DNA from: a virus
Virus record (IMG/VR): IMGVR_UViG_3300021960_000500
Coordinates: 1 to 24,003 of that record
DNA: 24,003 bases
Reading direction: 5' to 3' (one strand)
This document shows positions 1,693 through 24,003 of this stretch, in pieces; the first letter of the stretch is position 1; each line of letters opens with the position of its first letter. Under the pieces are notes generated by a model that was not told the origin of the DNA, ran no database searches, and saw nothing but the letters and a program-made list of their open reading frames with translations. The translations under genes were made by a program, and so were the position numbers.

Positions 1693-1832
1693 TACTTTAA
1701 TACCTTGTGTGCGGTTCCATCACCATCATACTTATCGGTGTCATAGTATCCACCGTTAAGTTTCAGTCCAAACCATATTGTAGAGAGTACAAATGGAATT
1801 GACAAGAACATGAGTGCTTTTCCTAACAACAT
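1692..1832 (-). CDS. Small membrane-anchored hypothetical protein
   Basis: A 46-residue protein with a hydrophobic N-terminal stretch (MLLGKALMFLSIPFVLSTIW) and an acidic soluble tail (YYDTDKYDGDGTAHKVLK). It could be a signal anchor or a small exported protein. It begins five bases after the preceding stop and ends in a TAATG overlap with the next gene. Function not recognised. Confidence 0.68.
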   Translation of the reverse strand: MLLGKALMFLSIPFVLSTIWFGLKLNGGYYDTDKYDGDGTAHKVLK

Positions 1833-1837
1833 AATTC

Positions 1838-2023: not shown

Positions 2024-2180
2024 ATGCATCCTCCACGTAGGGTCCGTGTGGTCGTTTGGCATCTTCTCTGACATAAGTTACTTCAGATACGCTTGTAGAT
2101 AACCATAGTGATAATTTCATTACTATGTAGATAACTGCGAGAGGAAGAAAACATAGTGAAAGAATTAATGCATGTCTCAT
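1989..2180 (-). CDS. Small membrane protein with acidic tail
   Basis: A 63-residue protein with an N-terminal hydrophobic segment (about residues 4-28, ALILSLCFLPLAVIYIVM) and a strongly acidic C-terminus (DADEEDEEY). The start overlaps the gnd stop as ATGA, so it is coupled to gnd. Function not recognised. Confidence 0.7.
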   Translation of the reverse strand: MRHALILSLCFLPLAVIYIVMKLSLWLSTSVSEVTYVREDAKRPHGPYVEDAYADADEEDEEY

Positions 2181-3214: not shown

Positions 3215-3222
3215 AATTTCTC

Positions 3223-4554: not shown

Positions 4555-4721
4555 TCAACGACTCCCTTACAATGTGGACACGTCCATCCACTATCGCTGA
4601 ATAATAAATTGGAATGAAATGCTCCACTTTCACAGAATTGTTTGATTGGTTCACTGATCTCAGCGTCAACCAAACTCTTATGACAATGTGGGCATTCTCT
4701 AAGTGTTAGTGGGTAGATCAT
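4551..4721 (-). CDS. Small two-CPHC zinc-ribbon protein between talC and zwf
   Basis: A 56-residue protein with two CPHC motifs, ECPHCHKS at residues 9-16 and TCPHCKG at 47-53, about 35 residues apart, as in a treble-clef or zinc-ribbon fold. It is coupled on both sides by ATGA overlaps, to the 53-residue gene upstream and to zwf downstream. Its position in the metabolic operon suggests a co-expressed adaptor or regulatory protein, but that is inference. Confidence 0.75.
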   Translation of the reverse strand: MIYPLTLRECPHCHKSLVDAEISEPIKQFCESGAFHSNLLFSDSGWTCPHCKGVVE

Positions 4722-4879
4722 GCTCTCTTCGGAACGTACTCCATGTCTTCTAAAAATTGATCAAGAATTGCACCATACTCCCTGAACTTTCTGTCACCAG
4801 CGATAAAACAACGTTGTCTCATCCAAACGGCATCAGCCAACATCTTTACTTGTTCTTCGGTAAAGGTGAATTCCTTCAT
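4718..4879 (-). CDS. Small hypothetical protein following talC
   Basis: A 53-residue charged, helical-looking protein (MKEFTFTEEQVKMLADAVWM at the start). It overlaps the talC stop and the next start, each as ATGA, so it is part of a four-gene translationally coupled chain talC to zwf. No family recognised. Confidence 0.72.
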   Translation of the reverse strand: MKEFTFTEEQVKMLADAVWMRQRCFIAGDRKFREYGAILDQFLEDMEYVPKRA

Positions 4880-5544
4880 TTGTTTTCCTCTTGTTTTTGT
4901 ACTTGATCCCAGTCTTTCTGGAATTGTTCAAGACCTTTTTCGGTCATTACATTCTTATACATTGCCCAGAATACCACTGGTGGAATTGTAACAATGTCTG
5001 CACCAAACTTTGCACACTGTTCTACTTGACGTACATCACGGATAGATGCACCAAGAATCTGAGTAGTAGTGAATCTACCACCTCCAGTATACACCTCACG
5101 GATGTCTTTGATAAGTCCAAGTCCATCCACGGAGTTGTCCATCCATCTACCTACGAAAGGTGAGATATATGCAGCACCTGATTTCTCTGCGAGAATAGCC
5201 TGTGCAACCGAGAACACTAAAGTAACATTGACTTTATATCCAGCAATCGTGAGTGCAAGACATGCTTTCAATCCTTCAACTGTACATGGAACCTTGATCG
5301 TTACGTTCCATAATCCATTAAATGCTTGTGCTTGATCAATCATTTCCTCTGCAGTATCAGCAACCACCTCTGCGGAGATTGATTCTAACTGTGGAAATGA
5401 TGTGTGAATTTCTTTAATAACTTCGATTGGATCACGTCCACTCTTACGAATAAGAGTTGGATTTGTTGTAACGCCGTTCAAAAGACCCGTTTCATAAACG
5501 GACTTAATCATATCAATCTCGGCGGTATCTAGAAAAATTTTCAT
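4876..5544 (-). CDS. talC: Transaldolase (TalC type)
   Basis: Transfers a three-carbon dihydroxyacetone unit in the non-oxidative pentose phosphate pathway. The 222 residues match the short TalC/fructose-6-phosphate-aldolase-like class: MKIFLDTAEI (1-10), NGVTTNPTLI (23-32), and TIKVPCT, with K84 as the Schiff-base lysine. Also seen are NVTLVFS and the C-terminal phosphate-site region GADIVTIPP. TalC is one of the best-known cyanophage metabolic genes. It is coupled downstream to two small genes and then zwf and gnd, giving a contiguous pentose phosphate set. Confidence 0.95.
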   Translation of the reverse strand: MKIFLDTAEIDMIKSVYETGLLNGVTTNPTLIRKSGRDPIEVIKEIHTSFPQLESISAEVVADTAEEMIDQAQAFNGLWNVTIKVPCTVEGLKACLALTIAGYKVNVTLVFSVAQAILAEKSGAAYISPFVGRWMDNSVDGLGLIKDIREVYTGGGRFTTTQILGASIRDVRQVEQCAKFGADIVTIPPVVFWAMYKNVMTEKGLEQFQKDWDQVQKQEENK

Positions 5545-5553
5545 ATTTACTTC

Positions 5554-5643
5554 TTAAAAAGGATAGGCATGTGTCACTCCCCATAAAACAAATAATCCTA
5601 TGGTTCCAAAAATGACTAAAGTATATAGAGTAAGACTATTCAT
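5554..5643 (-). CDS. 29-residue single-pass membrane peptide
   Basis: The peptide begins MNSLTLYTLVIFGTIGLFVL and ends WGVTHAYPF, one hydrophobic helix with little else. A GGAGG site lies upstream and the ATG overlaps the previous stop (TGATG). Size and topology resemble small thylakoid-complex subunits (for example cytochrome b6f or photosystem mini-subunits), but I see no diagnostic motif. Confidence 0.62.
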   Translation of the reverse strand: MNSLTLYTLVIFGTIGLFVLWGVTHAYPF

Positions 5644-5768
5644 CACAAATCTCCTCCGTTGCGAAATCCTACAATGTAACCAAGTAAAACTCCACACATA
5701 AATGACACCCACAAATACAACATGTGGGATACGAATGCAATAAACTCAAGCCATTCTGTCGTAGTCAT
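5643..5768 (-). CDS. 41-residue single-pass membrane protein
   Basis: One hydrophobic helix (about residues 10-34; LYLWVSFMCGVLLGYIVGF) followed by RNGGDL. A GAGGA site precedes the ATG, which lies inside the end of the upstream gene (23-base overlap). The stop overlaps the next start by one base. Function not recognised. Confidence 0.65.
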   Translation of the reverse strand: MTTTEWLEFIAFVSHMLYLWVSFMCGVLLGYIVGFRNGGDL

Positions 5769-5877
5769 CGTCTTCCTCGTATAAAGGACAAGGTTCTTCA
5801 AAGAGATACTGAATTCTAAGTTGATTGGTTCTTTCGTAAATTTGTCTGTAAAACTCTTCTTTTTCTTCTTTACTCAT
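5746..5877 (-). CDS. 43-residue acidic hypothetical protein
   Basis: Starts MSKEEKEEFYRQIYERTNQL and ends in an acidic stretch (LYEEDDDYDRMA). Soluble. It overlaps the genes on both sides (8 and 23 bases). The tight packing supports it as real, but no family is recognised. Confidence 0.6.
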   Translation of the reverse strand: MSKEEKEEFYRQIYERTNQLRIQYLFEEPCPLYEEDDDYDRMA

Positions 5878-6055
5878 CTCTTTTGAATAAGTCTTCTACT
5901 TGTTTACGAGTATTAGTCATCCTTTCTTTTTCACGTTCCGCATGTTTGTACCCATGTTTGCCATGAAAAATAAAGTGACCTTGACAAATCATAGTCACTC
6001 CAAAAAGGAATAGAGTTATAACTCCGATCCAATCTACAATGTGATGTTCAACCAT
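5870..6055 (-). CDS. 61-residue membrane protein
   Basis: One N-terminal hydrophobic segment (about residues 8-26, DWIGVITLFLFGVTMICQG) and a charged cytoplasmic-looking tail rich in Lys, Arg and Glu. It overlaps the upstream gene by 22 bases. Function not recognised. Confidence 0.65.
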   Translation of the reverse strand: MVEHHIVDWIGVITLFLFGVTMICQGHFIFHGKHGYKHAEREKERMTNTRKQVEDLFKRDE

Positions 6056-6237
6056 GGGAGAACAGGTGGAATGACGCCAATAAGTCTCAAAAGTCCTTCA
6101 GCAAATAAAGCAAGAACAACCCAACCAACGCACATAGAAATAATGGAAGCATTCCGATTGTGTCTGCGTATAGCAGCATCAATCATCTCCTGAACTTCTG
6201 TACGACTGACATAATCATCATCGTATGGACTCATCAT
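6034..6237 (-). CDS. 67-residue membrane protein
   Basis: A soluble acidic N-terminus (MMSPYDDDYVSRTEVQEM), a short basic helix, then a hydrophobic C-terminal half with one or two membrane segments (VGWVVLALFAEGLLRLIGVI). Two adjacent ATGs (6237, 6234) are possible starts; the first overlaps the previous stop. Function not recognised. Confidence 0.68.
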   Translation of the reverse strand: MMSPYDDDYVSRTEVQEMIDAAIRRHNRNASIISMCVGWVVLALFAEGLLRLIGVIPPVLPWLNITL

Positions 6238-6383
6238 TTCTCGTCTCCAAGCATTTTACCTAAGGGATCTTTTTCACCTCTCACAATTGCACATGCTCTT
6301 TTGTAGAACATGTTGTTGGTGTTACCAGAAGTCTCGAAAGTCTCCTTGATCTTCACCCAATTATTATAGGTGTGTTCGTCCAT
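6234..6383 (-). CDS. 49-residue hypothetical protein, first gene of the pentose phosphate run
   Basis: Starts MDEHTYNNWVKIKETFETSG and ends GKMLGDEK; soluble, no family recognised. Its stop overlaps the next start. It is the first gene after tRNA-Ser in this direction. The 114-base gap to the tRNA (6384-6497) is very AT-rich and probably holds the promoter, with TATTATATACT-like boxes, but I could not match a convincing -35 or an exact late box there. Confidence 0.66.
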   Translation of the reverse strand: MDEHTYNNWVKIKETFETSGNTNNMFYKRACAIVRGEKDPLGKMLGDEK

Positions 6384-6497
6384 GAGGTTATTGAGTTGTA
6401 CATAAGTATATAATAATTACGGATCCTCAAAAGGCATCATTGTGTGTTTGTATCGTAACACTCATTAAGTAATTATTAAATTTGTAACTTTTCTAAA

Positions 6498-6581
6498 CGG
6501 AAAGGGTGGGATTCGAACCCACGGTGCTCGTCACACGGCAGTTTTCAAGACTGCTACCTTAAACCACTCGGTCACCTTTCC
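6498..6581 (-). tRNA. tRNA-Ser (anticodon UGA)
   Basis: A long-variable-arm tRNA: acceptor GGAAAGG pairs with CCTTTCC, anticodon arm GCAGT-CTTGAAA-ACTGC, variable arm between, T loop TTCGAAT. The discriminator is G, as in serine tRNAs; CCA is not encoded. It starts six bases after the oxygenase stop at 6587, so it is probably processed from that mRNA. Confidence 0.95.
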
Positions 6582-6586
6582 AATAT

Positions 6587-7273
6587 TCACAATGTCAATG
6601 ATACAGTTGGATCTTCTGAGATAGTTCCTTTCAAGAAGTAATTAAAAGCAAGGATGCCTCGATTTTTATCTGAATCATTTTCACTAACGGAATGTTCTAG
6701 ATGACTTGGAAAAATAAAGACATCACCCGTTTTAGGTAATATTGTCCAAGTATCTGAATTCAAATTGATAGGTCTATCAACAATTGGTTTTACAGTTGGA
6801 GAACAAAAAGTATTTGCATTATCTCCACTGTGAAATGTAAGTCTTCCAGCATTTCCTTCAGACTTTAAATAACAAACTCCACTATAAACAGAGTTTGTAT
6901 GCATATGTCGTTCCACTCTGGAACCACCAAGTCCAATTGCTGCCCAAGAACAAACTAGTTCTGGTTTAACACTCTTTGGAAAATATAAAGTATTAAACAA
7001 AAAATGTTGTACCATTGAATCAATGGTTTCCTTTAGATCTTTAAGTTTAGGATCATTCAAAACCTGGTTAGACTTTGTATTATAAACTCCTGCCTGGGTT
7101 TTGTTTTCTGTAAAAATGGCAGTATCAACTACATCAATTTCAAAATAAGTATTTTTAAAATTATTGATGTGGTAGATACCAACAGGAACTGGAAATAAAG
7201 CTTTTACATTTGAAGTAAAAGGAGATGAAGTATTACTATTTGAATTCTTAATTAATTCAGCAATGTTGTTCAT
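6587..7273 (-). CDS. Putative 2OG-Fe(II) oxygenase (phage-type, third in window)
   Basis: A 228-residue protein of the type annotated as putative 2OG-Fe(II) oxygenase in many phages. It has ERHMHTNSVYSGVCYL (residues 121-136, with H123 and H125), a beta-strand block, then GDVFIFPSHLEH (183-194, metal H194) and R205 in DKNRGILAFNYF. The usual HxD is not obvious; H125 followed by N127 may take that place, so the first iron site is less certain than in the other oxygenases here. The ATG overlaps the stop of the zinc-ribbon gene (ATGA). Likely transcribed from the late promoter at 7542-7549. Substrate unknown. Confidence 0.78.
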   Translation of the reverse strand: MNNIAELIKNSNSNTSSPFTSNVKALFPVPVGIYHINNFKNTYFEIDVVDTAIFTENKTQAGVYNTKSNQVLNDPKLKDLKETIDSMVQHFLFNTLYFPKSVKPELVCSWAAIGLGGSRVERHMHTNSVYSGVCYLKSEGNAGRLTFHSGDNANTFCSPTVKPIVDRPINLNSDTWTILPKTGDVFIFPSHLEHSVSENDSDKNRGILAFNYFLKGTISEDPTVSLTL

Positions 7274-8594: not shown

Positions 8595-8956
8595 CTGAAT
8601 TGTGCCAAACCAGTACCAGAACTCCAACCACCAGGGCCGGATTGATATTGTTCAGATCCACCACCAAGTTGAGGAAGTGGATCTAGTTGAATAGTAGTAT
8701 TACCACTAGAAGTTGCAATACGATACATCTTTTCATGAATATCATCCGGTTCAACTACAACACCATGAATAGGATGACAATCTTCTTCATTGAAAATAAT
8801 TTGTCGATCTTCAATCGCCCTTTCCCTCGCTTCTTTTAAAGAAATAGATCTTTCAGTTTCGGGAGCAGGACCAAACCATGGATCATCCTGCAACACATCT
8901 GGAGCAGGAATACCAATATAAGGTTTGACTAAGTTTTTAATTTTTTGAAAAATCAT
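8591..8956 (-). CDS. 121-residue hypothetical protein with Gly-rich tail
   Basis: An acidic N-terminal two thirds (residues 30-75, with EARERAIEDRQIIFNEED) and a Gly/Gln/Ser-rich C-terminus (LGGGSEQYQSGPGGWSSG), as often seen in virion accessory proteins. It is coupled by ATGA to the lysozyme-like gene upstream and to the small gene downstream, so the three form one unit. No family recognised. Confidence 0.75.
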   Translation of the reverse strand: MIFQKIKNLVKPYIGIPAPDVLQDDPWFGPAPETERSISLKEARERAIEDRQIIFNEEDCHPIHGVVVEPDDIHEKMYRIATSSGNTTIQLDPLPQLGGGSEQYQSGPGGWSSGTGLAQFR

Positions 8957-9576
8957 GACCAGATTAGTTTTTTGTGGTAGTTGTGAGCGTATTGTTCTCT
9001 ATGACCTTTAATACCCCATCCTAACCAATAATAAGCACCAACCATGTATTGATGAATTGGTTGTCCATGTCCTTCAAATTCTGGAAGAACTTTTTGGAAA
9101 GAATATTCGTTAATCATGTATGCGGTTTGACCTTCAAGAGATGAAGGATCATAACCATATTTTTTGGAAAATTTACCTAATCCTTTATAGCGATTTATGG
9201 ATGTCCATTGGATTAAACCATAACCACCTCTGAGACATCTATGATATGGAACTCTCGCACCACCTTCACAAATGTTAGGTACAAAACCAGACTCTGCTTT
9301 GATATTACCCATAATCGTAGCAAGAGCATTACGATCTGAGATATTTGTTTTTGCCTGAAGTTGTTCAAGAACATATTGTTCATTCTTGTTACAACCAGGA
9401 CACTTCCAAGATCCTTTTTCAACTTCAATAGGAATTGCCTTTGGAGGAGGACCTTTTTCTATTTTAACATCAAGAACCGCAATCGGCAGTCCAGTCATCA
9501 TTTCAGCATGTGTGCTACTAACACCAAACGCTGCAAGTGAAACTGCCGCAACAGCTCCGAGTTTTTTAAAAAGCAT
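8953..9576 (-). CDS. Exported phage lysozyme-like protein
   Basis: A 207-residue protein with a cleavable signal peptide (MLFKKLGAVAAVSLAAFGVS, cleavage probably after A24) and then a phage-tail-lysozyme-like domain: ALATIMGNIKAESGFVP (84-100, candidate catalytic E95), CEGG, GGYGLIQWT (117-125) and a C-terminal half with YYWLGWG. Such domains cut peptidoglycan. A CPGC pair (C59, C62) precedes the domain. The frame is open upstream to a TTG at 9624, but the ATG at 9576 gives the signal peptide its start. It could be a Sec-exported endolysin or a virion cell-wall enzyme. Confidence 0.78.
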   Translation of the reverse strand: MLFKKLGAVAAVSLAAFGVSSTHAEMMTGLPIAVLDVKIEKGPPPKAIPIEVEKGSWKCPGCNKNEQYVLEQLQAKTNISDRNALATIMGNIKAESGFVPNICEGGARVPYHRCLRGGYGLIQWTSINRYKGLGKFSKKYGYDPSSLEGQTAYMINEYSFQKVLPEFEGHGQPIHQYMVGAYYWLGWGIKGHREQYAHNYHKKLIWS

Positions 9577-9676
9577 TAATACGTATTGAACTCTGCATCC
9601 GAATAGAAGGGGGGTATACCACAACCCTCTCGGGGGGCACCTTCCTCGGCTCTAAAATCAAATCAAGGTCTCATAA

Positions 9677-13062: not shown

Positions 13063-13695
13063 GTGGCATATTCTTCGATTTGGTATTTTTCAAAAATACC
13101 CATAGAGCTTACAGATCTAATTTGCAGAGAAGTGTCATCTTTTGATAATGAATTACAGACATCAGAGATAATTCAGACAACAAATAATCAACTAGATATA
13201 GACAAACGCAGAAGATCTAGTAAACATTCTTGGATTCCATCCAGTCATTGGATACATGGATTATTGTGGCATTATGTAACGTTGGCTAATAGAGATAATT
13301 TTTTATACGATATCGAATGTATAGATGGAGGAATGGTTCAATATACAAAGTATAATAAAGGTGATTTTTATGCGTGGCACTCAGACACTCTTATAGACTA
13401 TTCGTATAAACCAAAATATACCAGGACAGAAACTGAAAGTATTGCTGAAGACAAATTTAACTTACTAGGAGAATCGTCAAGAAAACTATCCTTTGTAATG
13501 CAATTAACAGATGAATCGGAATATGAAGGTGGAGAAGTTCAAGTTATGGACTCTACTGGTGAGTTATATTCCGTCCCAAGAGAAAGGGGTGCGGTAATAA
13601 TTTTTGATTCAAGACTGACACATAGAGTAAGAAAAGTACGTTCTGGTATCAGAAAAAGTTTGGTTGGTTGGGCGGTTGGTCCCAGGTGGAGATAA
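13063..13695 (+). CDS. 2OG-Fe(II) oxygenase, prolyl-hydroxylase-like (PKHD type)
   Basis: A 210-residue protein with a prolyl-4-hydroxylase-type double-stranded helix: MVQYTKYNKGDFYAWHSD (91-108, H106 and D108), KLSFVMQLTD (141-150), YEGGEVQV, then RGAVIIFDSRLTHRV (175-189, H187) and R197 in GIRKSL. These are the Fe(II) and 2-oxoglutarate ligands. The order fits PKHD-type hydroxylases, which hydroxylate proteins or small iron-uptake related targets. The start is a GTG directly after an in-frame TAA; no Shine-Dalgarno site is visible. It is the only oxygenase here on the plus strand and the only one with its own sigma-70-type promoter, while the fibre gene behind it has a late promoter. Confidence 0.85.
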   Translation: MAYSSIWYFSKIPIELTDLICREVSSFDNELQTSEIIQTTNNQLDIDKRRRSSKHSWIPSSHWIHGLLWHYVTLANRDNFLYDIECIDGGMVQYTKYNKGDFYAWHSDTLIDYSYKPKYTRTETESIAEDKFNLLGESSRKLSFVMQLTDESEYEGGEVQVMDSTGELYSVPRERGAVIIFDSRLTHRVRKVRSGIRKSLVGWAVGPRWR

Positions 13696-13727: not shown

Positions 13728-16700
13728 ATGTCTAGACTTGGCATCAATACAGGAAATAATGCAAACGATGGTCAAGGTGATACGCTGCGTGCAGCGATGG
13801 GGAAAATTAATAGTAATTTCCTAGAAATATACACCACACTTGGCGATACAGCTAACGTTATCAGTTATGCAAGTACAGCTGGAATTGCCACTTTGGCAAG
13901 AAATCTTGCAAATAGTCCAATCATAGAAGTTGATGGTATCGTAAACTCTGGTATTACAACCACTGAACATATTGAAGTAAGAAACATTACTTCTACTGGA
14001 ATTATTACCGCAGTTCAATTCGTTGGAGATGGTAGTCAATTAACAGATGTTATTGCTACAAATCCTGGTATTGAAATTCTAGATGAGAATGTAAGACGAG
14101 GTGTAGCGAGAGAAATCAACTTCGGCGCAAACGTACTCGTAACCGCACCAGATGTAAACGGTAGAGTAACAGTTACCGTTCCTGCTGGAACCGATTCCAC
14201 AAACTACTCAAACTTTGCTGGAATATCTTCCTATGCAGATTCTGCTGGCATTGCTACTCACGCTACAACCGCAGATGTAGCAGCAGATCTTTCGGGTTCC
14301 CCAGATGTAGAACTAGGAAATGTAACCGCAGGAATTATTACCGCAACAGAATTTATCGGTGATGGTTCTAAGATTACTGGAGTTGTCGGAGAAGGTTCTG
14401 GTGTTAGAGTTGAAGATAATGGAATCATCGTTGGTGTTGCAGGAACAATCAACTTTGGTGGAGACCTAGACGTTGGTCCTATCATCGGCGGAAGAGTTAC
14501 AATTACTGGAAGTGGAATTGCCACAGGTATTGATGGAACTCCAGACGTAGATCTTAGAAACGTAACTGCTGGAATCATAACGGCAACCTTCTCTGGTGAT
14601 GGTTCTCAACTAACTGGAATTCCTAGAGGTTATTGGGATAAGAGTCTAGTTGGACTCAACACAGTAGATAATGTTGGTATTGGTACAACTGCAAAACCAA
14701 ATTACGCTCTTGACGTAAGTGGATCTGTTTCATTAAGAAATGATGCAACTATTTCTGGTTCTAGATTTAGTACAACATCTGGTGGACAGGCATCCTTCAC
14801 ACTTCCAAGTTCTCCAGTTTCTATTAGTGGAGGAAACGGACAAACATCAATAGAAATTCAACAACTCAATAACGAACCATTCAGAGTTCGTTACATGGGT
14901 AAGTTTGATAGTACCCTACAAATTGGAACATCGTTCTACAGCGATACGGTATCAATCCCTGATTATAAGAATGCAATATTCATGGATGGGGGTCGCTCCT
15001 GTATTGCAGTAGGTACCGGCATTACAATGTGTGGTATGTCTGGTATCATTACCGCAAATGGATTTGTTGGCGATGGTTCTGGCATTACTGGTATTCTAAC
15101 TGGTGCAGATGTAGAAACTGCGGTAAATGCAGGTCTAGTCGGTTATGCAACACAAGGTTACGTTAATAATTCTATTGTTGGACTTCTTACTTCTGGAGCT
15201 CTAAATGGATACGCAACAGAAAGTTGGGTTGAGAATGAAATTTCACTAATCCCAACCTTTGGTGGAGATTACAATGATCTCGTTAACAAACCATCTATTC
15301 CAGCAGCATTAAATGATCTTACAGATGTAAACGCATCTACTCCTTCGAATGGTCAAGTGCTGAAGTGGTCTGGTAGTGCTTGGGTTGCAGCAGCAGACCA
15401 AACTGGTGCTGGTGGAGTTGGTATTGGATTATCTGATCTATCTGTAACTCAGAATCCAGCAGGAATTGCTTCGTTAACATACGACAACACCACTGGAATT
15501 TTCTTATATACTCCACCAAACCTAACAGGATATGCAACTACAGATTCTATTAGTAGTTTCATAACATCTGCTGCTTTGGTTGGATATGCAACAGAAGGTT
15601 ATGTTGACAACTCTATAAGTATCTCTGGATTCATCACCTCAGGATACCTACCTCAAAATAACTATGCAACCACAACTACAATCGAAGCATATGGTTATGC
15701 AACTCAAGTTTATGTAGATACTCAAATTGCAGGAGTTTCAAGTTTCACTGGTGCTGCAAGTACAATCACTTCCCTTAACATTGATCAGTGGACACAGGCC
15801 TATAGTTGGGGCAACCATGCTAATCAAGGATATCTAAATGTTTATACTGAAACATCGACACTACAAGATGTAATTGATAGAAGTGGAATTGCAACTGCAG
15901 ATGTTACAATTGTAGGAATATTAACTGCGACTAACTTTAAGACTCCTGGTGGAACATCTTCTCAGTTCCTAAAAGCAGATGGAAGTTTTGATAGTAATAC
16001 TTATCTATCAGATGTTACTATCACTGCAGGTTCCGGAATTGATGTAGTAGAACTTTCAGAAGGAAACTTCATTATTACCTCAACTGGAGGAGGTGGTGGT
16101 GGATCAAATCTGATCATAAACGATGATGGTTCTTTAGTTGGAACTGCTGGAACCATTGATTTTGGAATCGGTTTATCCGTATCACCAGTATCCGCTGGTG
16201 TTGTTACTGTAACTGGAATAACAACTTCTAATATAATATCAGACTCTTTAGAAGTTTCTGGAGTTTCCACATTTAGTAATGACGTAACCGTTAATGATGG
16301 TGGACTAACTGCAAGTAGACTAAATGTTTCTGGAATTTCAACATTCCAAAACAATATACAAGTAAACTTAGATGCTATAGTTTCTGGTATTGTATCTGCA
16401 ACTGCTTTCTATGGAGACGGTTCTGGCCTTACTGGTATTAATGGTTCTGGAGTTTGGACTACTGTTGCCAGTGGAATCATCACTTCCAAAAATGTTGGTA
16501 TTGGAACTGACGTAGCTTCTTCCGCATTAACAGTGGAGGGAGATGGAAGATTTAGTGGTGTTGTTACTGCCACTAGATTTGAAAGTGCCTCTGCAGGTAC
16601 TCCAAGTATTGATTCTCCAAATAATCTTAATATCAATGCAATTAACGTTGCAATTAGTACAGACTTAACAGTTGGTGGAGATCTTACAGTAAATGGAAGT

Positions 16701-17246
16701 TTTGTTGGTGCTGCAAGTAGCATTAACGTATCAACTGGTCATGGTAATGTTGATCAAACTGGAAGTCTTGTATTTACTCTTGGTGGAGCTGGCAATAGTC
16801 AAGCTTATATTGATGCAGCATCATACAATCCAGGAACAAATACTTTGAGTGTAGACAATGTAAAAGTCACTGGGATAACAAGTTCCAAGACTTATTATGC
16901 AACTACTACTGTTGGTGATGGTACTGATGTGGGATTTGCAGTTAAGTATTATATAACAAACAATGCAACAACTGCATATCGTTTTGCTGGTCCTGGTCTA
17001 TTAAATACTACAGATAATCCAACATTCTATCTACAGAGAGGATTTTCTTACATCTTTGAAAACTCTACTGGCGTAAACCATCCATTCAGAATCCAATTTA
17101 CAGGAACAACCATCGGTGTGGGTACTTATGTAACAGGTTCTCAAACTGGAACTCAAATATTTACGGTTCCATTCGATGCACCATCAAGTTATGAGTATCA
17201 ATGCACGATTCACGGTGGCATGGTAGGAACATTTAACGTAGTATAA
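13728..17246 (+). CDS. Long fibre-like virion protein with GDGS repeats and cupredoxin-like C-terminus
   Basis: A 1172-residue protein. The N-terminus (NDGQGDTLRAAMGKINSNF) matches a module common at the base of phage fibres. Next come five GDGS(Q/K/G)(L/I)T repeats, starting near residues 100, 211, 290, 448 and 896, each after an ITA or VTA strand. A middle region has repeated GYAT-x-YV units (about 475-660), suggesting trimeric stalk. The last 60 residues resemble a type 1 copper protein: H1118 (VNHPF) and C1159-x2-H1162-x2-M1165 (QCTIHGGM). Likely a tail or capsid fibre. The subtilase follows after two bases, so processing by it is possible. Confidence 0.82.
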   Translation: MSRLGINTGNNANDGQGDTLRAAMGKINSNFLEIYTTLGDTANVISYASTAGIATLARNLANSPIIEVDGIVNSGITTTEHIEVRNITSTGIITAVQFVGDGSQLTDVIATNPGIEILDENVRRGVAREINFGANVLVTAPDVNGRVTVTVPAGTDSTNYSNFAGISSYADSAGIATHATTADVAADLSGSPDVELGNVTAGIITATEFIGDGSKITGVVGEGSGVRVEDNGIIVGVAGTINFGGDLDVGPIIGGRVTITGSGIATGIDGTPDVDLRNVTAGIITATFSGDGSQLTGIPRGYWDKSLVGLNTVDNVGIGTTAKPNYALDVSGSVSLRNDATISGSRFSTTSGGQASFTLPSSPVSISGGNGQTSIEIQQLNNEPFRVRYMGKFDSTLQIGTSFYSDTVSIPDYKNAIFMDGGRSCIAVGTGITMCGMSGIITANGFVGDGSGITGILTGADVETAVNAGLVGYATQGYVNNSIVGLLTSGALNGYATESWVENEISLIPTFGGDYNDLVNKPSIPAALNDLTDVNASTPSNGQVLKWSGSAWVAAADQTGAGGVGIGLSDLSVTQNPAGIASLTYDNTTGIFLYTPPNLTGYATTDSISSFITSAALVGYATEGYVDNSISISGFITSGYLPQNNYATTTTIEAYGYATQVYVDTQIAGVSSFTGAASTITSLNIDQWTQAYSWGNHANQGYLNVYTETSTLQDVIDRSGIATADVTIVGILTATNFKTPGGTSSQFLKADGSFDSNTYLSDVTITAGSGIDVVELSEGNFIITSTGGGGGGSNLIINDDGSLVGTAGTIDFGIGLSVSPVSAGVVTVTGITTSNIISDSLEVSGVSTFSNDVTVNDGGLTASRLNVSGISTFQNNIQVNLDAIVSGIVSATAFYGDGSGLTGINGSGVWTTVASGIITSKNVGIGTDVASSALTVEGDGRFSGVVTATRFESASAGTPSIDSPNNLNINAINVAISTDLTVGGDLTVNGSFVGAASSINVSTGHGNVDQTGSLVFTLGGAGNSQAYIDAASYNPGTNTLSVDNVKVTGITSSKTYYATTTVGDGTDVGFAVKYYITNNATTAYRFAGPGLLNTTDNPTFYLQRGFSYIFENSTGVNHPFRIQFTGTTIGVGTYVTGSQTGTQIFTVPFDAPSSYEYQCTIHGGMVGTFNVV

Positions 17247-17248
17247 AA

Positions 17249-19183
17249 ATGAACAAATATACAATCTCAGTCACATCTCCAGAATATTGGCAGGAGATCC
17301 ACGATCTCCTGTGTGATGAAACTTCTTGCGATCATATACCAGATAGACAAGTTTCTTGTTGTGATGAGAAATTACATAGTCCTACTAGAGGAACGTTTGA
17401 ATTAAGTGAAGAAGAAGTTGAAGATTTAAAAAATCATGAACATATTGAGTGGATTGAATTGGATCCAACTGAATACAAAGATGAATATCCAAAACCAGGT
17501 CACTATATCAAAAGATTCAATAAAAATGTGAAAGTATATCGTGACTTAGATTCTTCTGGGATTCCCGCAACAAATCCAACTTCTTTAGAATTAGATAGAA
17601 CTGGGTGGGGACTTGTTAGAACTGGAATCAAAACCGCAGGAGACTTTTGGGGTGAAAGATGGGGAACATCTGGTGATGCTCCACCAATTAATGGAGATGT
17701 TAGTTATAGTTTAACTGGAAAAAACGTTGACGTAGTTATTCACGACTCTGGTGTTCTTGCAGCTCACCCAGAGTTCTTAGATGAAAATGGAGTATCTAGA
17801 GTAAGAGATATTGTTTTAGATGGCCCATATTACATAGATCCAGATTATTTTGACACTAATAATCTAACTTATACTAGATGGGATGGTAGAGTTGGTTGCA
17901 CCACAACCGCTGCAAGAAACTGGTGGATTAGTGGATCAAACAGATCTGTTGGATTCAGTACAATTGGTACAGTAAGTGTAAGTACAGGGTACATAGCATC
18001 CCCCGCTATTGGAGTAGGTAGTGATGGTTCTAATAGTATGACTAGTGGACATGGCACTGCATGTGCTAGTTTAATTGCTGGAAAAACTCTTGGACTTGGA
18101 TTTGAGGCTAATATATGGAATATGTCTGGTATCGGTGAACCAGCATCAATGAGTATTAGCATCGAACAAAATTATGACTTGATGAAATTATTTCACTTAC
18201 ACAAACCCGTCAATCCAGAAACGGGAGTAAAGAACCCAACACTTATCAATGGAAGTTGGGGATATCAAGCTGCATTTTTATCCTCCAGTACTGTTACATA
18301 TTTGTTTAGAGGGGAAACTGGTACTTTTACAGGAAATGATCCAGTCACAGATCAAGTGACCGCTATGAAGACTGGGTTAAATGCTCAAATTGCTGGCGTC
18401 CAAGAATCTTGGTCTTCTTCATCTCGTTCAAATTCCACCGATACTGCTGGTAGGGAACTAATGGATGCAGGAGCAATATATGTTGCTGCAGCAGGAAACA
18501 ATAACCAAAGACTTGGTGTAGGATCATCAGATCCCGATCGTCTAAATTATATGTCCGATAATTATTTCGGTTCAACAGATCCAAGATCACACTTCCCAAG
18601 TAATTGCGTCCCTTGCAACCATAGGGACTGGATGAACCCACAAGGTATCGGATTTAACTCTACCACTGATCCAGAATGGCATCCAGTAATTTGTGTCGGT
18701 GCTATGAATGATGAGTTTTATGATACTCAATTAAGAGAAGCAAAAGCAAGTTATTCTAACAATGGTCCTGGAATTGATGTCTGGGCACCTGCAGATGAAA
18801 CTCTAGGTGCAGGAACAAATAATGTTAGTGGATATACTGATTATCAAAGATATGATGACACTCGTTTTTACGATTGTAGATTTAATGGAACATCTGCAGC
18901 TGCACCAGTAGCTACATCAGTATTATCAATATATCTTCAAACAAATCCAACAGCAACATCGAGAGATGTAAAAGAATGGATAAACAAACACGGTTCTGTA
19001 GTCGTTGCAGACGAACAGTTCCAAGATAGTGAACCAGACGATACTCAGACAAACTATTGGACATTCAGTTACACTCTAAGAGGTGCAGAAAGGAGAGTTA
19101 TTTACAATCCTTACGCTAATGATACTATTCCAAAAATTGAAGGTGTCAATATTTCTGGTGGATTAAATATTAAGATGCAGTAA
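17249..19183 (+). CDS. Subtilisin-family (S8) serine protease
   Basis: A 644-residue protein with a complete catalytic set: D166 (VIHDSGVL), H268 (SGHGTACASLIAG), oxyanion N417 (YVAAAGNNNQ) and S549 (FNGTSAAAPVAT). Residues 1-75 resemble an I9-type propeptide (ELSEEEVEDLKNHEHIEW then IELDP) and carry four cysteines (22, 27, 37, 38). There is no signal peptide, so it would act in the cytoplasm, in the virion, or after lysis. It starts two bases after the fibre gene without a clear ribosome site, which suggests coupling. Proteolytic maturation of virion or fibre proteins is a reasonable role; substrate unproven. Confidence 0.9.
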   Translation: MNKYTISVTSPEYWQEIHDLLCDETSCDHIPDRQVSCCDEKLHSPTRGTFELSEEEVEDLKNHEHIEWIELDPTEYKDEYPKPGHYIKRFNKNVKVYRDLDSSGIPATNPTSLELDRTGWGLVRTGIKTAGDFWGERWGTSGDAPPINGDVSYSLTGKNVDVVIHDSGVLAAHPEFLDENGVSRVRDIVLDGPYYIDPDYFDTNNLTYTRWDGRVGCTTTAARNWWISGSNRSVGFSTIGTVSVSTGYIASPAIGVGSDGSNSMTSGHGTACASLIAGKTLGLGFEANIWNMSGIGEPASMSISIEQNYDLMKLFHLHKPVNPETGVKNPTLINGSWGYQAAFLSSSTVTYLFRGETGTFTGNDPVTDQVTAMKTGLNAQIAGVQESWSSSSRSNSTDTAGRELMDAGAIYVAAAGNNNQRLGVGSSDPDRLNYMSDNYFGSTDPRSHFPSNCVPCNHRDWMNPQGIGFNSTTDPEWHPVICVGAMNDEFYDTQLREAKASYSNNGPGIDVWAPADETLGAGTNNVSGYTDYQRYDDTRFYDCRFNGTSAAAPVATSVLSIYLQTNPTATSRDVKEWINKHGSVVVADEQFQDSEPDDTQTNYWTFSYTLRGAERRVIYNPYANDTIPKIEGVNISGGLNIKMQ

Positions 19184-19188: not shown

Positions 19189-19195
19189 CTAAATA
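19189..19195 (+). promoter_or_regulatory. CTAAATA box, possible late-promoter variant
   Basis: CTAAATAAA on the plus strand in the gap between the subtilase and the exported 168-residue protein, 25 bases before its ATG. Same core as at 10426-10432 and 9718-9724. Confidence 0.4.
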
Positions 19196-19220: not shown

Positions 19221-19727
19221 ATGAAAAAGTTAGCTTTGCTCTTCGGCATGGTTTTGATGGCAGCGCCCGCACACGCTGATCTTACTCATAAACTTTCTTC
19301 ATCAGTTCAACTGACTGTGAATGCTGCGGCAACCAATGTTCAAAGAGTTGGTAACTCCTACTCTGTATCTGGTAATGGGGTAACTCTTGATGTTGGTGGT
19401 GGGTCAAAAGGAGCTGCTGACCTTGCTGTCGGTGGACTCGGCACACTAACTAGTGGTGTTGCTGGTGGATCTCTTCCCACAGCATACCAGACAACAGACG
19501 GTGCTTCATTCACCTTCTCAAACTCGTTTACTGCTGGTGACACTATTCAAACTTCTGCTCCTACTGTAGGTGCTGTTGATGCTTATTCTAATCAAACTTC
19601 TACTGCTGCTGGTTCTGCTGGGTCTCTTGCTGGTACGATTACGTCGGCAGGATCAGTAACTCTTACTGCTGGTGGTGCTGGTACTTCGGCAACAGGACAA
19701 TACGTTTCCGAAATTACTATCAAGTAA
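19221..19727 (+). CDS. Exported Gly/Thr/Ser-rich protein
   Basis: A 168-residue protein with a clear signal peptide (MKKLALLFGMVLMAAPAHA, cleavage before DLTHKL). The mature part is rich in Gly, Ala, Thr, Ser and Val, with beta-prone stretches (SVSGNGVTLDVGGGSKG; AGSVTLTAGGAG) and no cysteine. I chose the ATG at 19221 because it begins the signal peptide; a TTG at 19206 is possible. It may form beta-rich surface or periplasmic material. Related in style to the next two genes. No family recognised. Confidence 0.75.
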   Translation: MKKLALLFGMVLMAAPAHADLTHKLSSSVQLTVNAAATNVQRVGNSYSVSGNGVTLDVGGGSKGAADLAVGGLGTLTSGVAGGSLPTAYQTTDGASFTFSNSFTAGDTIQTSAPTVGAVDAYSNQTSTAAGSAGSLAGTITSAGSVTLTAGGAGTSATGQYVSEITIK

Positions 19728-19742
19728 CAATGGGACTTAGTT

Positions 19743-20210
19743 ATGGTTTTCCAAATCCTCAAGGGTGTCAATGTTCAAACTGCACTGGCACCTCTTTCTG
19801 CAACTGTTGCTCTCATTGCATTGTTTTCTGGGCAAGTAAAAGCGGTTCCAGTAGTTCCAAACTTCACACAGGGCTCGATGACTTCCCACACGGAAACAAC
19901 GAGTACGGTAACAGAGACAATTAATTCAATAGATTATAATACGGGTTATCAATATACAGTAACAGGTAGTGGTATTACAGCATCAGGAAATCTTTCACCA
20001 GGAACAGGTGCTAATAATGTAACAATCGAAGGAGTGACTTCATCATGGACAGGCGTCAACAGCAGACCAACATTCACACAGACAACACCAGGAGCAGCGT
20101 TTCAGTTCACAGAAACGTATCAAGGCCCTGGTTTAAGCAATCAAACAATTATTCAAAGAACTACCGAAATTCAAAGCGTCACCGACACTACAAGTATCTT
20201 TACGCAGTAA
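19743..20210 (+). CDS. Exported Thr-rich protein
   Basis: A 155-residue protein with an N-terminal hydrophobic segment that reads as a signal peptide (APLSATVALIALFSGQVKA, cleavage near residue 34). The mature part is rich in Thr, Ser, Gln and Gly (TSHTETTSTVTETINS) with beta character and no cysteine. It lies 15 bases behind the 168-residue gene and overlaps the long frame of the next gene by 166 bases. No family recognised. Confidence 0.72.
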   Translation: MVFQILKGVNVQTALAPLSATVALIALFSGQVKAVPVVPNFTQGSMTSHTETTSTVTETINSIDYNTGYQYTVTGSGITASGNLSPGTGANNVTIEGVTSSWTGVNSRPTFTQTTPGAAFQFTETYQGPGLSNQTIIQRTTEIQSVTDTTSIFTQ

Positions 20211-20947
20211 TCCTAAGTGTCGCATCCTTCACACTGGTCGAACAAAGAGTTCTTGCTGAGACTGTTGGCGGCGTTAGCGCCACTGCTGCTCCTGTGGCTA
20301 ATTCCTCTGGCAGTGTCACAAACCAAGCAATCCAAGTCCTACAAGGCCCCTATATCACCAACACCTATGGTGGTGGAATCCAGTGTCAGGGCCCAACTCT
20401 AAACATAACTCCATTTGTCACTGGTGCTGGTTCAATGCAGAAACCATATGAACCATACTATAGGGATCCTGTATATGATATGCGTGACCTCAACGATGAT
20501 GGGTCTCTGGATAACCCAGGCAACATTCTTTACCATGTACCCACCAGAACAGGTCAAAAAGATAACTATAACCTCTCAGTAGGTGTCAGTGCTACCTGGA
20601 GTATCCCACAAGATAAGAAGCTTCAAGATCAGTGTAAACAAGCAGCAGCAACTCAGATCGAGTTACAACAGCAACTAATTGCTAACAAACGTTTAGACTT
20701 TGAAATAGCCAGACTCAAGAACTGTGGCGAGTTAATGAAAGCGGGAATTTTATTTCACCCCAAGTCACCATATCATAAAGTCTGTGCAGACGTGATACTA
20801 GTTAATCCTCCTGGAGTTGTTGCACCTCACGTTCACTCTATCCCTTCGGCTTCAAGACAGACTTCAAGGCCCTTATCGCCTGTGTCCTCTCGCGCTGAAG
20901 ATCTCGGCGCTCCCTTACAGACAAGACAGGGACAGACTTCCCCCTAA
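20045..20947 (+). CDS. Exported protein with uncertain start (up to 300 residues)
   Basis: The frame holds a signal-peptide-like segment (YLYAVILSVASFTLVEQRVL, cleavage after A71), then a mature region with a Cys pair and a helical part (QCKQAAATQIELQQQLIA) and a Pro/Ser-rich end. The only ATG in front of the signal segment is at 20045, deep inside the previous gene, and would add 50 very basic residues. No ATG, GTG or TTG lies nearer, so either the long overlap is real or a rare start is used. The 3' end runs 110 bases into the convergent gene. Function not recognised. Confidence 0.65.
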   Translation: MDRRQQQTNIHTDNTRSSVSVHRNVSRPWFKQSNNYSKNYRNSKRHRHYKYLYAVILSVASFTLVEQRVLAETVGGVSATAAPVANSSGSVTNQAIQVLQGPYITNTYGGGIQCQGPTLNITPFVTGAGSMQKPYEPYYRDPVYDMRDLNDDGSLDNPGNILYHVPTRTGQKDNYNLSVGVSATWSIPQDKKLQDQCKQAAATQIELQQQLIANKRLDFEIARLKNCGELMKAGILFHPKSPYHKVCADVILVNPPGVVAPHVHSIPSASRQTSRPLSPVSSRAEDLGAPLQTRQGQTSP

Positions 20948-21635
20948 TAGAAGCAATCTTTTTCATCACTTTCTTGACGGTTGGTTTAATAACCTTGAGT
21001 AGGACATCCGCCAACGGTTTTGCCATAAGTGCAGATGCAGTTGCAACGACAGCGATACCACCAGTAGTCATCACAGTTCCTGCAGGAGGAACCCCAGCAA
21101 TAATTTGTTCTGGAATGGAAACTTTCTCAGTGATTTGGATGCACTGACCATCTATAATTTTATATCCACTTACTTTCTTTCTAAAACCTTCTAAGTATGT
21201 TCCAATAGGTGCTGTTTCCTGTTGTACTTCTGTAGGACACTCTATCTTTGGCTTATTGACAGTTACCGTTGATGGTGGAGTTCTTGGTATCTCTGGTGTT
21301 GGTAACTCAGGTGACTCTGGTGTTTCAGTTTTATATCCAGATATCTGAGAACCATCACTAAATACCATACTCTCAGGAGAATATTCTATTGGATTGAATG
21401 ATGGGATAGTGGCATCACAATACACCATCGATCCATTCTCATCATCCTGTGCGAGTTTCTTGTTTTTGCCAGCATCAGGATGTGATTCTACACAACCAGG
21501 AAGATTGACGATAGGAGTCCCTATCTGTTGCGTTACTGGAACAACAGGCGGTATTGCTTGTGGTGATTGAATCAACGAATTAGGAATTTGTGGTACATTC
21601 AAACTCCTAATTTGTACTTCTCGTATCTCAGGCAT
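20838..21635 (-). CDS. Pro-rich protein with hydrophobic and cationic C-terminus
   Basis: A 265-residue protein. Residues 1-140 are rich in Pro, Ile, Ser and Glu with repeated PxIP/PExP motifs and two cysteines. A conserved-looking part follows (about 140-170, YLEGFRKKVSGYKIIDGQC). Then comes a hydrophobic stretch (MTTGGIAVVATASALMA, near 195-212) and a very basic end (KPTVKKVMKKIASIRGKSV). I chose the ATG at 21635; one codon earlier is a TTG. It is the last gene of the minus block and converges with the exported plus-strand gene. Function not recognised. Confidence 0.72.
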   Translation of the reverse strand: MPEIREVQIRSLNVPQIPNSLIQSPQAIPPVVPVTQQIGTPIVNLPGCVESHPDAGKNKKLAQDDENGSMVYCDATIPSFNPIEYSPESMVFSDGSQISGYKTETPESPELPTPEIPRTPPSTVTVNKPKIECPTEVQQETAPIGTYLEGFRKKVSGYKIIDGQCIQITEKVSIPEQIIAGVPPAGTVMTTGGIAVVATASALMAKPLADVLLKVIKPTVKKVMKKIASIRGKSVPVLSVRERRDLQRERTQAIRALKSVLKPKG

Positions 21636-21748
21636 CAATCATTGTCAGTGAAAAAATTCCAAATGCCAGAGTAAAAGTGATAAAAGAACACATAAAGAAA
21701 GAACTTTCCCTCAGTGTCTCTGTTTTTTCTTTTTCTTGTTGTAGTCAT
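21628..21748 (-). pseudogene. Small membrane-protein gene with apparent frameshift
   Basis: Starting at the ATG at 21748 the frame gives a 37-residue peptide (MTTTRKRKNRD...) ending at 21635. The +1 frame over the same bases has no start codon near, but reads QQEKEKTETLRESSFF followed by MCSFITFTLAFGIFSLTMID and ends at 21628, a typical small single-pass membrane protein that overlaps the next gene by eight bases. One extra base in the run near 21737-21741 would explain it. Alternatives are a non-standard start or programmed frameshifting at the A-rich run. Confidence 0.45.
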
Positions 21749-21765
21749 AATTAAATTTTATTTTA

Positions 21766-22032
21766 TTAATTCGAAGTGAATCCCTTCTCGAAATCTAAAA
21801 CTGGGCCAGTCTTAGTTGGGAGTTTGGGTATCTCAGGCATAGAACTCTTAATCATTCCAGGAAGTTTACCAGACACCGATCCAGTAACTGTTTTAGTAAC
21901 TTCTTCGATTGCTTGTTGTTTCAACTCTTCAACCATTCTATCCTTATTCAGATAAAGATACGTACCACCAACAACAACGCCAAGTGACACAAGTCCCGAT
22001 AATAAGGCAATACCATTAATAACTTTCTGCAT
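21766..22032 (-). CDS. Small membrane-anchored protein
   Basis: An 88-residue protein with one N-terminal hydrophobic helix (about 5-28, NGIALLSGLVSLGVVVGG) and a longer soluble part (KDRMVEELKQQAIEEVTK, then SGKLPGMIKSSMPEIPKLP). The MPEIPKLP-like tail echoes the PEIP motifs of the Pro-rich protein at 20838-21635. A CGGAG ribosome site lies before the ATG. Function not recognised. Confidence 0.72.
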   Translation of the reverse strand: MQKVINGIALLSGLVSLGVVVGGTYLYLNKDRMVEELKQQAIEEVTKTVTGSVSGKLPGMIKSSMPEIPKLPTKTGPVLDFEKGFTSN

Positions 22033-22033
22033 T

Positions 22034-22201
22034 TTAAACTCCGAATTTTTTTAATTGTTCATCAACATCTTTGAATTCACCATAATACTCACATGGATAT
22101 TCCATAGTGGTGAGAACTTTATTTGGTAACATTAAATCAGTTCTACAATACCCACCACCAATTTCAATATGTCCAACAATAAACAATGTAGTCAACAACA
22201 T
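22034..22201 (-). CDS. 55-residue protein with hydrophobic N-terminus
   Basis: Starts MLLTTLFIVGHIEIGGGYCR and continues with an acidic, Tyr-rich tail. The N-terminus could be a short signal peptide. A GAGGT ribosome site precedes the ATG and the stop lies one base before the start of the next gene. Function not recognised. Confidence 0.66.
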   Translation of the reverse strand: MLLTTLFIVGHIEIGGGYCRTDLMLPNKVLTTMEYPCEYYGEFKDVDEQLKKFGV

Positions 22202-22210
22202 TTTAATACC

Positions 22211-22672
22211 TCATTCAACTAAAGTACCATGCGCTCTACGAATTTCACGTAGTTCTTCAAAGTTCTTCTGTTTGGTTCCGCCGTCATACGCCCAAGCATA
22301 ACCCTCTTCGATCATTTGTTCGTTGAGGGACACGTCGGCGTCTCCGACGTAGAGCCAGCCGAGAAGACGCCCGTACTTCCCAACACCGCCAACAAGCTCA
22401 GTGCGGATAACGAGATCGTCAGACCCATGAAGTACCTCCGCAAGTCTTGCTTCCAACCAATGTGTTGCGTCATAACCAAGTGCTTTTTCTTCTTCGTCTT
22501 TAGTGCGTTTCTCTGGGGTGTCAACACCAGCAACTCTAACTCTTTCTTTTTTATAAAGATCAAAACCGAGATCAATCGTGACATCGATCGTGTCTCCATC
22601 CAGTACTCTATCTATACTGGTTACTCTAAAATTGTAACAACTCTTACGAGAGGGTGGTTTCATTGCTCCCAT
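22211..22672 (-). CDS. Staphylococcal-nuclease-like thermonuclease
   Basis: A 153-residue protein with all catalytic positions of the SNase fold: RVLDGDTIDV (22-31, metal D25 and D27), RVAGVDTPE (46-54, R46, D51, E54) and KYGRLLGWLY (99-108, R102), then NEQMIEEGYAWAYDGG. It should cut DNA or RNA with calcium. There is no signal peptide from this start. Possible roles are host DNA breakdown or nucleotide salvage. The AGGAGG ribosome site lies inside the Lys-rich gene upstream, whose stop overlaps the start (TAATG). Confidence 0.9.
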   Translation of the reverse strand: MGAMKPPSRKSCYNFRVTSIDRVLDGDTIDVTIDLGFDLYKKERVRVAGVDTPEKRTKDEEEKALGYDATHWLEARLAEVLHGSDDLVIRTELVGGVGKYGRLLGWLYVGDADVSLNEQMIEEGYAWAYDGGTKQKNFEELREIRRAHGTLVE

Positions 22673-22770
22673 TACTTTTTCTTACCTCCTTTCTTAGCTT
22701 TCTTCGCAGTCGCGTTCCCTTGATTCTGCTTTGATTGACCCTTCTTGCCCTTGTTCGCGGACTTGGACAT
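22672..22770 (-). CDS. 32-residue Lys-rich peptide
   Basis: Begins MSKSANKGKKGQSKQNQG and ends KKAKKGGKKK; about 40 percent lysine and no hydrophobic core, as expected for a nucleic-acid-binding or charge-neutralising peptide. It overlaps the tail of the 71-residue gene in another frame and its stop is coupled to the thermonuclease start. Because the coding bases also hold the thermonuclease ribosome site, it could be only a leader peptide. Confidence 0.55.
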   Translation of the reverse strand: MSKSANKGKKGQSKQNQGNATAKKAKKGGKKK

Positions 22771-22909
22771 CTTCTTCTAGTTCCTTAAATGATAGGCGTA
22801 GAATATATATGACACAATATAGCGTAAATGCGAGTCCGCAACCAAGAAGGATGATTACGGACCATACTGGGTTATTTACATCTTCAAGTGGTTTCAAAAG
22901 TAATTCCAT
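22694..22909 (-). CDS. 71-residue single-pass membrane protein
   Basis: One hydrophobic helix (about 16-37, WSVIILLGCGLAFTLYCVIY) and an acidic charged tail (KELEEDVQVREQGQEG). The start overlaps the stop of the beta-barrel-like gene (TAATG). The last 77 bases overlap the Lys-rich gene. Function not recognised. Confidence 0.68.
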   Translation of the reverse strand: MELLLKPLEDVNNPVWSVIILLGCGLAFTLYCVIYILRLSFKELEEDVQVREQGQEGSIKAESRERDCEES

Positions 22910-24003
22910 TAGAACCTAAACTTAACTTTACCAGCAACAGCAGTATTACTAATACCATCAGATATTTGATGGAGTCCTTCTATGTATAACACTTGGTTGT
23001 AATCAAGAGAAGCAATAGTTGTCACATCAATATTAGTATCAACGGATGCTTCTAAACCAAAACCAAACTTGTCTCCTTTCTTACCACCAAAACGACGAGA
23101 AATAGCAAGTCCTGCTTCACCAGTGTGATTTGTCTTGTTTACTTCCTCATCTCTTCTTGCCGTTTGAATAGTGCCAGACTCACTGTAAGCATCTCTATGA
23201 TACTTACCAATGGTATATCCAACGAAAGGACTTACATACTTATTTGCCTTAACGTAAACTCTATTGTTTACCCACCACTCTTGTCCATTAGTGGTTGAAG
23301 CATTATTAAAGAGACTACCTGTATTTCTGGCAACGGTGTAAGTATTCTGAGATAATCCAGCATTAGTGCGAAGTGATAATGTATTACCACGAAGCATACT
23401 GAATACACCATAGTGCTTGGCACTCAGGTTTGAATAACTATCAGCACCAGTTAAGTCAATATTTACATCATTATATTGTCCACCCAGAGTCCAGTTTGGT
23501 TTTACATCAATTTCTAATCCACCACCAATTACTCTGGATTTTCCATAGTAACCATTATCACCATTAGCCCATCCAAAGTAATTCTTACTGAAAACTCTTA
23601 CTCTTTCTTTTGTTTTTGAAGGAGTATGATTGAGAATACTTTGAAGACCGCTGTTGATTCTATCAAGAACTTCTACCTGATCAATACGTCCAGTATACTT
23701 CTCAGTAGTATTTGTAGTTGTGGTAGAACTCGAATAACTTGTAGTTGTAGAACCGTCACTATAAGTATCTACAGTTTGATATGTTTTGGTGGTGTCTTTC
23801 TTTACATTTCTGTCTAATGTTTGAACACCATCTTTTACAGAAGGAGTATCAGTAATAGTAGTAACTACTGATGTAGAATATAAACTAGTTGCCGTACTTG
23901 TAAGTGTTGGAGAACTACCAGCAAGAACAGCAGCAGAGATAGTAACAGTGCTACTACGAATTACCTGATCCCAAGGAGCCCAGTCCATCGTTGGAGATCC
24001 AGA
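22909..24003 (-). CDS. Outer-membrane beta-barrel-like protein, 5' end outside the window
   Basis: The visible 364 codons stay open to the window edge. An ATG at 23988 exists, but five codons before it are also open, so the gene probably starts outside. The N-terminal visible part is Thr/Ser-rich (STTTSYSSSTTTTNTTE). From about residue 140 alternating strands with aromatic girdles follow (NYFGWANGDNGYYG; GGGLEIDVKPNWTLGGQY; YVSPFVGYTIGKY) and the protein ends KVKFRF with a C-terminal Phe, as in autotransporters and other Gram-negative outer-membrane barrels. A beta-rich virion protein is the alternative. Confidence 0.68.
   Translation of the reverse strand, partial: SGSPTMDWAPWDQVIRSSTVTISAAVLAGSSPTLTSTATSLYSTSVVTTITDTPSVKDGVQTLDRNVKKDTTKTYQTVDTYSDGSTTTSYSSSTTTTNTTEKYTGRIDQVEVLDRINSGLQSILNHTPSKTKERVRVFSKNYFGWANGDNGYYGKSRVIGGGLEIDVKPNWTLGGQYNDVNIDLTGADSYSNLSAKHYGVFSMLRGNTLSLRTNAGLSQNTYTVARNTGSLFNNASTTNGQEWWVNNRVYVKANKYVSPFVGYTIGKYHRDAYSESGTIQTARRDEEVNKTNHTGEAGLAISRRFGGKKGDKFGFGLEASVDTNIDVTTIASLDYNQVLYIEGLHQISDGISNTAVAGKVKFRF

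Follow-up and report, generated by a model that had tools for sequence, protein, structure and literature searches.

The described systems closest to the locus analyzed here are the two-component spanins, such as lambda Rz/Rz1 and T4 PseT.3/PseT.2, the class II holins, and the curli (type VIII secretion) modules of pelagiphages. T7 carries its holin and spanins between the tail fiber and terminase genes. The genes themselves were described in part as a mobile cluster of hypothetical genes, comprising T4-GC 218, 219, 234, 235, and 237 and accompanied by a plasmid stability protein, which occurs in every cyanophage of that study except S-PM2 (Sullivan et al. 2010, PMC3037559). The cassette has therefore been known since 2010, without a function, from a report that covered myoviruses; what is new here is its spread to siphoviruses and podoviruses, its linkage to lysis genes, and the embedded start of ORF3. 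In the cyanophage lysis-gene literature, of which our search covered few subscription journals, we found no paper assigning the module a function.

The window, i.e., the whole 24,003-nt stretch of DNA analyzed, is a fragment of a T4-like cyanophage, to judge from its best DNA matches, which are T4-like cyanophages of Synechococcus, and it encodes zwf, gnd, talC, nine tRNAs, a fiber-like protein, and an S8 peptidase. Several short genes at 195 to 7273 and 13063 to 13695 look like 2OG-Fe(II) oxygenases, and a terminal stretch of the fiber-like protein (13728 to 17246) resembles a plastocyanin-type copper site (HPF...CTIHGGM; Pfam Copper-bind E-value only 0.22). The S8 (subtilisin-type) peptidase gene (17249 to 19183) lies between the fiber-like gene and ORF1, and a related gene is found in three module loci. 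The features discussed below are located in the window as follows.

8953 to 9624, minus strand: exported lysozyme-like protein with a signal peptide (Phage_lysozyme2); a relative lies near the module in contig L100
9727 to 10404, minus strand: C39-family peptidase without a signal peptide; relatives lie beside the lysozyme and the module in freshwater cyanomyoviruses
19189 to 19195, plus strand: late-promoter-like CTAAATA, 32 nt ahead of the ORF1 ATG
19221 to 19727, plus strand: ORF1, exported, Gly/Ser/Thr-rich (phrog_564; T4-GC 237)
19743 to 20210, plus strand: ORF2, exported, with an all-beta model (DUF6322; phrog_650; T4-GC 236)
20031 to 20037, plus strand: GGAGTGA, a ribosome-binding-like signal ahead of the ORF3 start, with a conserved GTG Val codon
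20045 to 20947, plus strand: ORF3, exported, with four Cys and one long helix (phrog_848; T4-GC 235)
20838 to 21635, minus strand: ORF4, Pro-rich, with four Cys and a strongly basic C-terminus (phrog_570; T4-GC 234)
21766 to 22032, minus strand: ORF5, one-TM protein with an N-terminal TM (phrog_568; T4-GC 414)
22211 to 22672, in the opposing block: staphylococcal-nuclease-type endonuclease, by family match
22694 to 22909, minus strand: ORF8, one-TM protein with relatives within the same cassette
22909 to 24003, minus strand: C-terminal part of an autotransporter-like outer-membrane protein (the barrel), its N-terminus past the window edge

The homologs of GC 234, 235, 236, and 237 in the window keep the order and strands of the known cassette, and S-SM1 genes SSM1_163–169, labeled GC 218, 414, 219, 234, 235, 236, and 237, are the same genes. 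An earlier note on this DNA had called the region a candidate for an undescribed system in which none of the proteins is recognized. The 2010 report contradicts the former statement, and the latter was too strong, since ORF1 to ORF5 all fall into PHROG families and ORF2 also into DUF6322, albeit families without a useful function. The three plus-strand signal-peptide genes that it listed are present, but they are not simply successive, as the start of ORF3 falls within ORF2, in the −1 frame. The envelope proteins that it placed in the opposing block were likewise found (the barrel-like protein, the one-TM proteins ORF5 and ORF8, and the Pro-rich basic ORF4); the block also holds the staphylococcal-type nuclease and is therefore not purely an envelope block.

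Signal peptides are predicted in ORF1, ORF2, and ORF3, and an in-frame TTG at 19206 provides an alternative start for ORF1. Profile comparison identified ORF1 and ORF2 as paralogs (hhalign 95%). The predicted structure of ORF2 is all beta with two ~25-residue strands (pLDDT 79, pTM 0.38); it gave weak matches only, without a confident fold match, against the PDB, and its good BFVD matches are unnamed or uncharacterized phage proteins. A phage collar/tail or beta-pore fold was rejected for ORF2, because the Foldseek TM-scores were below 0.3, and we take these hits as a likeness of long hairpins and not as a shared fold. On the opposite strand, ORF4 has a single weak hydrophobic segment near its C-terminus (approximately residues 194 to 212), and its reading frame overlaps that of ORF3 tail to tail by 110 nt (20838 to 20947). 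A plasmid-stability function for ORF5 was set aside, as the family label is its sole source. The barrel ends in KFRF and has no Pfam match; its full-length relatives, including one in DSL-LC03 annotated as an autotransporter, have the same KFRF end, extend farther at the N-terminus, and carry a signal peptide. Since these relatives are few, we treat the barrel as accessory.

The start of ORF3 is a clear case of overlapping genes, and one that is often misannotated. Its ATG at 20045 lies within ORF2 in the −1 frame (overlap of 166 nt) and occurs at the same place and in the same frame in 79 of 79 myovirus loci, even though the codons that supply its A specify five different amino acids. The preceding Val codon is GTG in 78 of the 79 loci, compared with 18% usage elsewhere. 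In all 79, the −1 frame is open across the overlap; by synonymous shuffling of 36 representatives, the chance of this is ~0.2 to 11% per sequence, values that are not to be multiplied as the sequences share ancestry. Fourfold-site difference is 0.45 within the overlap versus 0.60 upstream. A −1 overlapping ORF3 start was also found in all 78 podovirus pairs, in 78 of 79 siphovirus pairs, and in 44 of 45 freshwater pairs, with mostly shorter leaders than the basic leader of ~45 residues that precedes the ORF3 signal peptide in the window. A frameshift fusion of ORF2 and ORF3 is less likely than internal initiation because ORF3 retains an ATG, a ribosome-binding-like signal, and a signal peptide of its own. 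The AlphaFold model of ORF3, built from myovirus sequences only, has low confidence (pLDDT 55) with a single helix predicted confidently. The idea of a TolC-like ORF3 (a strand followed by a long helix) was dropped, as a PDB sequence search gave only insignificant chance matches.

Matches to the module are widespread among phages. By tblastn, they were found in 444 phage records for ORF3, 412 for ORF2, 406 for ORF4, and 422 for the two-TM (GC 218, DUF6450) protein, nearly all from cyanophages. ORF1 to ORF5 recur in the same order in ~80 loci, more than chance would account for, bearing out the earlier view of an envelope-directed module of co-occurring genes. Its core consists of ORF2, ORF3, an ORF4-type membrane protein, and the two-TM DUF6450 protein and has a conserved order in cyano-myoviruses, -siphoviruses, and -podoviruses. 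Specifically, in myovirus loci, profile searches of IMG/VR revealed ORF1-ORF2-ORF3 followed on the opposite strand by ORF4, ORF5, and the two-TM gene. Of 81 siphovirus-type loci, 63 had two-TM, ORF1, ORF2, ORF3 in this order and ORF4 and ORF5 facing them, and the order was ORF4-type, two-TM, ORF2, ORF3 in 76 of 81 podovirus-type loci, where type refers to the P-HS2 or P-SSP7 protein used to fetch the loci and not to the family of each contig, and where ORF3 counts are not independent because the IMG/VR loci were fetched through ORF3 similarity. The podovirus ORF4-type profile matches 19 myovirus loci with E-values below 1e-3, which supports homology. In the typical marine cyanomyoviruses Syn9, S-SM1, and S-TIM4, the cassette lies between hsp20 and regA, with no lysozyme beside it. 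It is not universal: ORF3 is absent from S-PM2, P60, Syn5, P-SS2, and S-CREM2. In S-SZBM1, the module is missing at its usual place. Scanning a genome collection with a myovirus ORF3 profile gave eight loci, of which one is on a Prochlorococcus single-cell contig, one is from Nonlabens, and the others are on MAG contigs. We rejected a host origin for these and read them as probable phage DNA, judging from contig size and their MAG/SAG nature; the 188-kb contig of the Nonlabens xiamenensis isolate (L097), which carries an ORF3 homolog and has the size of a cyanomyovirus genome, is probably carried-over phage DNA.

The exported lysozyme and C39-like peptidase that had been linked to the module from the window sequence are both real, although only the lysozyme has a signal peptide, and the suspected link is borne out in the cassettes of relatives. 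In the window itself, no endolysin gene adjoins the module, the lysozyme and C39 genes lie ~9 kb away, and the two-TM gene is absent from the 24 kb. In contigs L100 and L101, this gene lies beyond the barrel gene, i.e., at a position equivalent to one past the window edge. The order in L100, which is near the window's phage, is window-type lysozyme, two-TM, barrel, ORF8, nuclease, ORF5, ORF4, ORF3, ORF2, ORF1. Freshwater and brackish cyanomyoviruses unite the same genes with a C39 peptidase, a phage lysozyme, and sometimes a barrel in one cassette; in DSL-LC02 and DSL-LC03, C39, lysozyme, barrel, two-TM, ORF4-type, and ORF3-ORF2-ORF1 genes are packed within ~6 to 8 kb, and many contigs show the arrangement C39, lysozyme, (barrel), two-TM, plus ORF4-type, with ORF3-ORF2-ORF1 on the other strand. 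An N-terminal domain of ~50 residues is common to the C39 peptidase and the lysozyme encoded at L268:3600-5041.

To guard against the picking of examples, we assembled a sample of 80 loci fetched with the two-TM protein alone; these form nine two-TM clusters and thus represent far fewer than 80 independent cases. Of the 40 loci with enough upstream sequence, 37 had a lysozyme or C39 gene on the same strand no more than 3.7 kb away, while loci with enough downstream sequence contained ORF3 (29 of 29) and an ORF4-type gene (26 of 29). The lysozyme ended 4 to 122 nt from the two-TM frame in 30 loci, and the cassette lysozymes were confirmed as PF00959. Of 34 podovirus loci, 12 have a lysozyme 3′ of ORF3 at a distance of up to 3.2 kb; a scan of 54 loci each from myoviruses and siphoviruses with the lysozyme profile found none near the module. 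Membership in a lysis cassette is thus well supported in relatives, and the module genes are probably the envelope part of the cyanophage lysis cassette.

Timing is consistent with this. The CTAAATA ahead of ORF1 makes for a candidate late promoter, as a motif rather than measured expression, and the published cyanophage late-promoter consensus is NATAAATA (PMC2984593). NTAAATA was found within 90 nt ahead of ORF1, mostly at 28 to 35 nt, in 63 of 70 loci, with CTAAATA in 44 of the 70 (1.8 after shuffling), and in the same loci the motif is rare ahead of ORF4 or ORF5. As a control, in S-SZBM1 it precedes 5 of 16 structural genes versus 1 of 18 others. No late motif was found ahead of ORF1 in Syn9.

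Late in infection, the two-TM DUF6450 protein would act as a holin in the inner membrane; the lysozyme and C39 peptidase would gain access to the peptidoglycan and cleave it; the exported ORF1, ORF2, and ORF3, together with the putative membrane protein ORF4, would then disrupt the outer membrane in place of spanins, joined in some phages by the outer-membrane barrel. Features that the DUF6450 protein shares with class II holins are two hydrophobic segments (in Syn9 gp161 and P-SSP7 gp43; one above the cut-off in P-HS2), charged ends, and a gene directly beside the lysozyme in many genomes; it differs in having no holin-family match, and its holin role is putative. The breakage of the outer membrane by ORF1 to ORF4 is a more tentative proposal, which we hold at somewhat less than even chances. 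The module resembles two-component spanins in its proposed outer-membrane task, its predicted membrane and periplasmic partners, its out-of-frame overlapping genes and conserved Cys, and, in podoviruses, its T7-type genome position (between tail fiber and terminase in P-SSP7), but differs in having no lipoprotein, no sequence similarity that we could find, and more exported components. Compared with an i-spanin, an N-terminal TM is present in ORF5, and the ORF4 segment is weak and near the C-terminus. None of the seven cassette loci scanned contained a lipobox-like gene or a unimolecular spanin (lipobox and C-terminal TM in one protein); in the window, the only lipobox is a chance one in another frame of gnd. 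P-SSP7, Syn9, P-HM1, P-SSM4, and S-SM1, which carry the module, appear in a published list of phages without spanins (Kongari et al., PMC6139136). S-PM2, P60, Syn5, and P-SS2 are also on that list and lack ORF3, so the module is not the sole route. The module may represent a new class of outer-membrane disruption system that works without a lipoprotein, with spanins supplanted by three exported proteins and a partner in the inner membrane, and that is common to myo-, sipho-, and podoviruses infecting picocyanobacteria of the sea and of fresh water.

The earlier note's envelope module holds, whereas its suggestion of a surface-layer, adhesion, or superinfection-exclusion system has weaker support than lysis, given that in many genomes these genes adjoin the lysozyme and the two-TM protein. 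One alternative is that the infected cell displays a surface or adhesion system, with ORF1 and ORF2 as homologous, curli-like exported subunits on the host surface that perhaps cause clumping or block other phages; this would fit their paralogy, reminiscent of major and minor fiber subunits, and the all-beta ORF2 model. Pelagiphages do carry curli modules (PMC7029224, PMC9599517), and these too are conserved exported modules, in abundant phages of the ocean, whose small exported proteins come in homologous pairs. However, no protein here matches a curli family in Pfam or NCBIfam (CsgG, CsgF, or curlin-repeat), the linkage to lysozyme, C39, and the two-TM protein would go unexplained, and late expression would leave little time for a surface role; we consider this reading unlikely.

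The late motif is also common to structural genes, and ORF1 to ORF3 follow the fiber-like and S8 peptidase genes in the window and lie near tail-fiber genes in P-SSP7 and P-HS2, as might be expected of minor structural or injected virion proteins that are exported to serve in assembly or adsorption. It is unusual for virion proteins of tailed phages to have cleavable signal peptides, which counts against this, and neither the Syn9 nor the S-SM1 record labels the module proteins as structural, leaving this reading quite improbable; the virion protein table of S-SZBM1 is uninformative here, as that phage lacks the module at its usual place. Small proteins of the envelope are a typical feature of exclusion systems, which speaks for envelope superinfection exclusion or control of lysis timing, whereby the genes would travel with lysis genes without breaking the cell; so do the lack of a late motif ahead of ORF4 and ORF5 and the absence of T4 r genes from cyanophages (PMC2984593). 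Set against these are the late motif ahead of ORF1 and the lack of any match in a defense library, which holds defense and not exclusion proteins, and we regard this option as very unlikely.

Returning to the lysis cassette, the module may explain how cyanophages without the usual proteins for that step break the outer membrane. With its spanin-less carriers, its export signals, and the lysozyme in relatives, this step becomes testable gene by gene, and such phages, by lysing picocyanobacteria, drive a large flux of carbon in the ocean.
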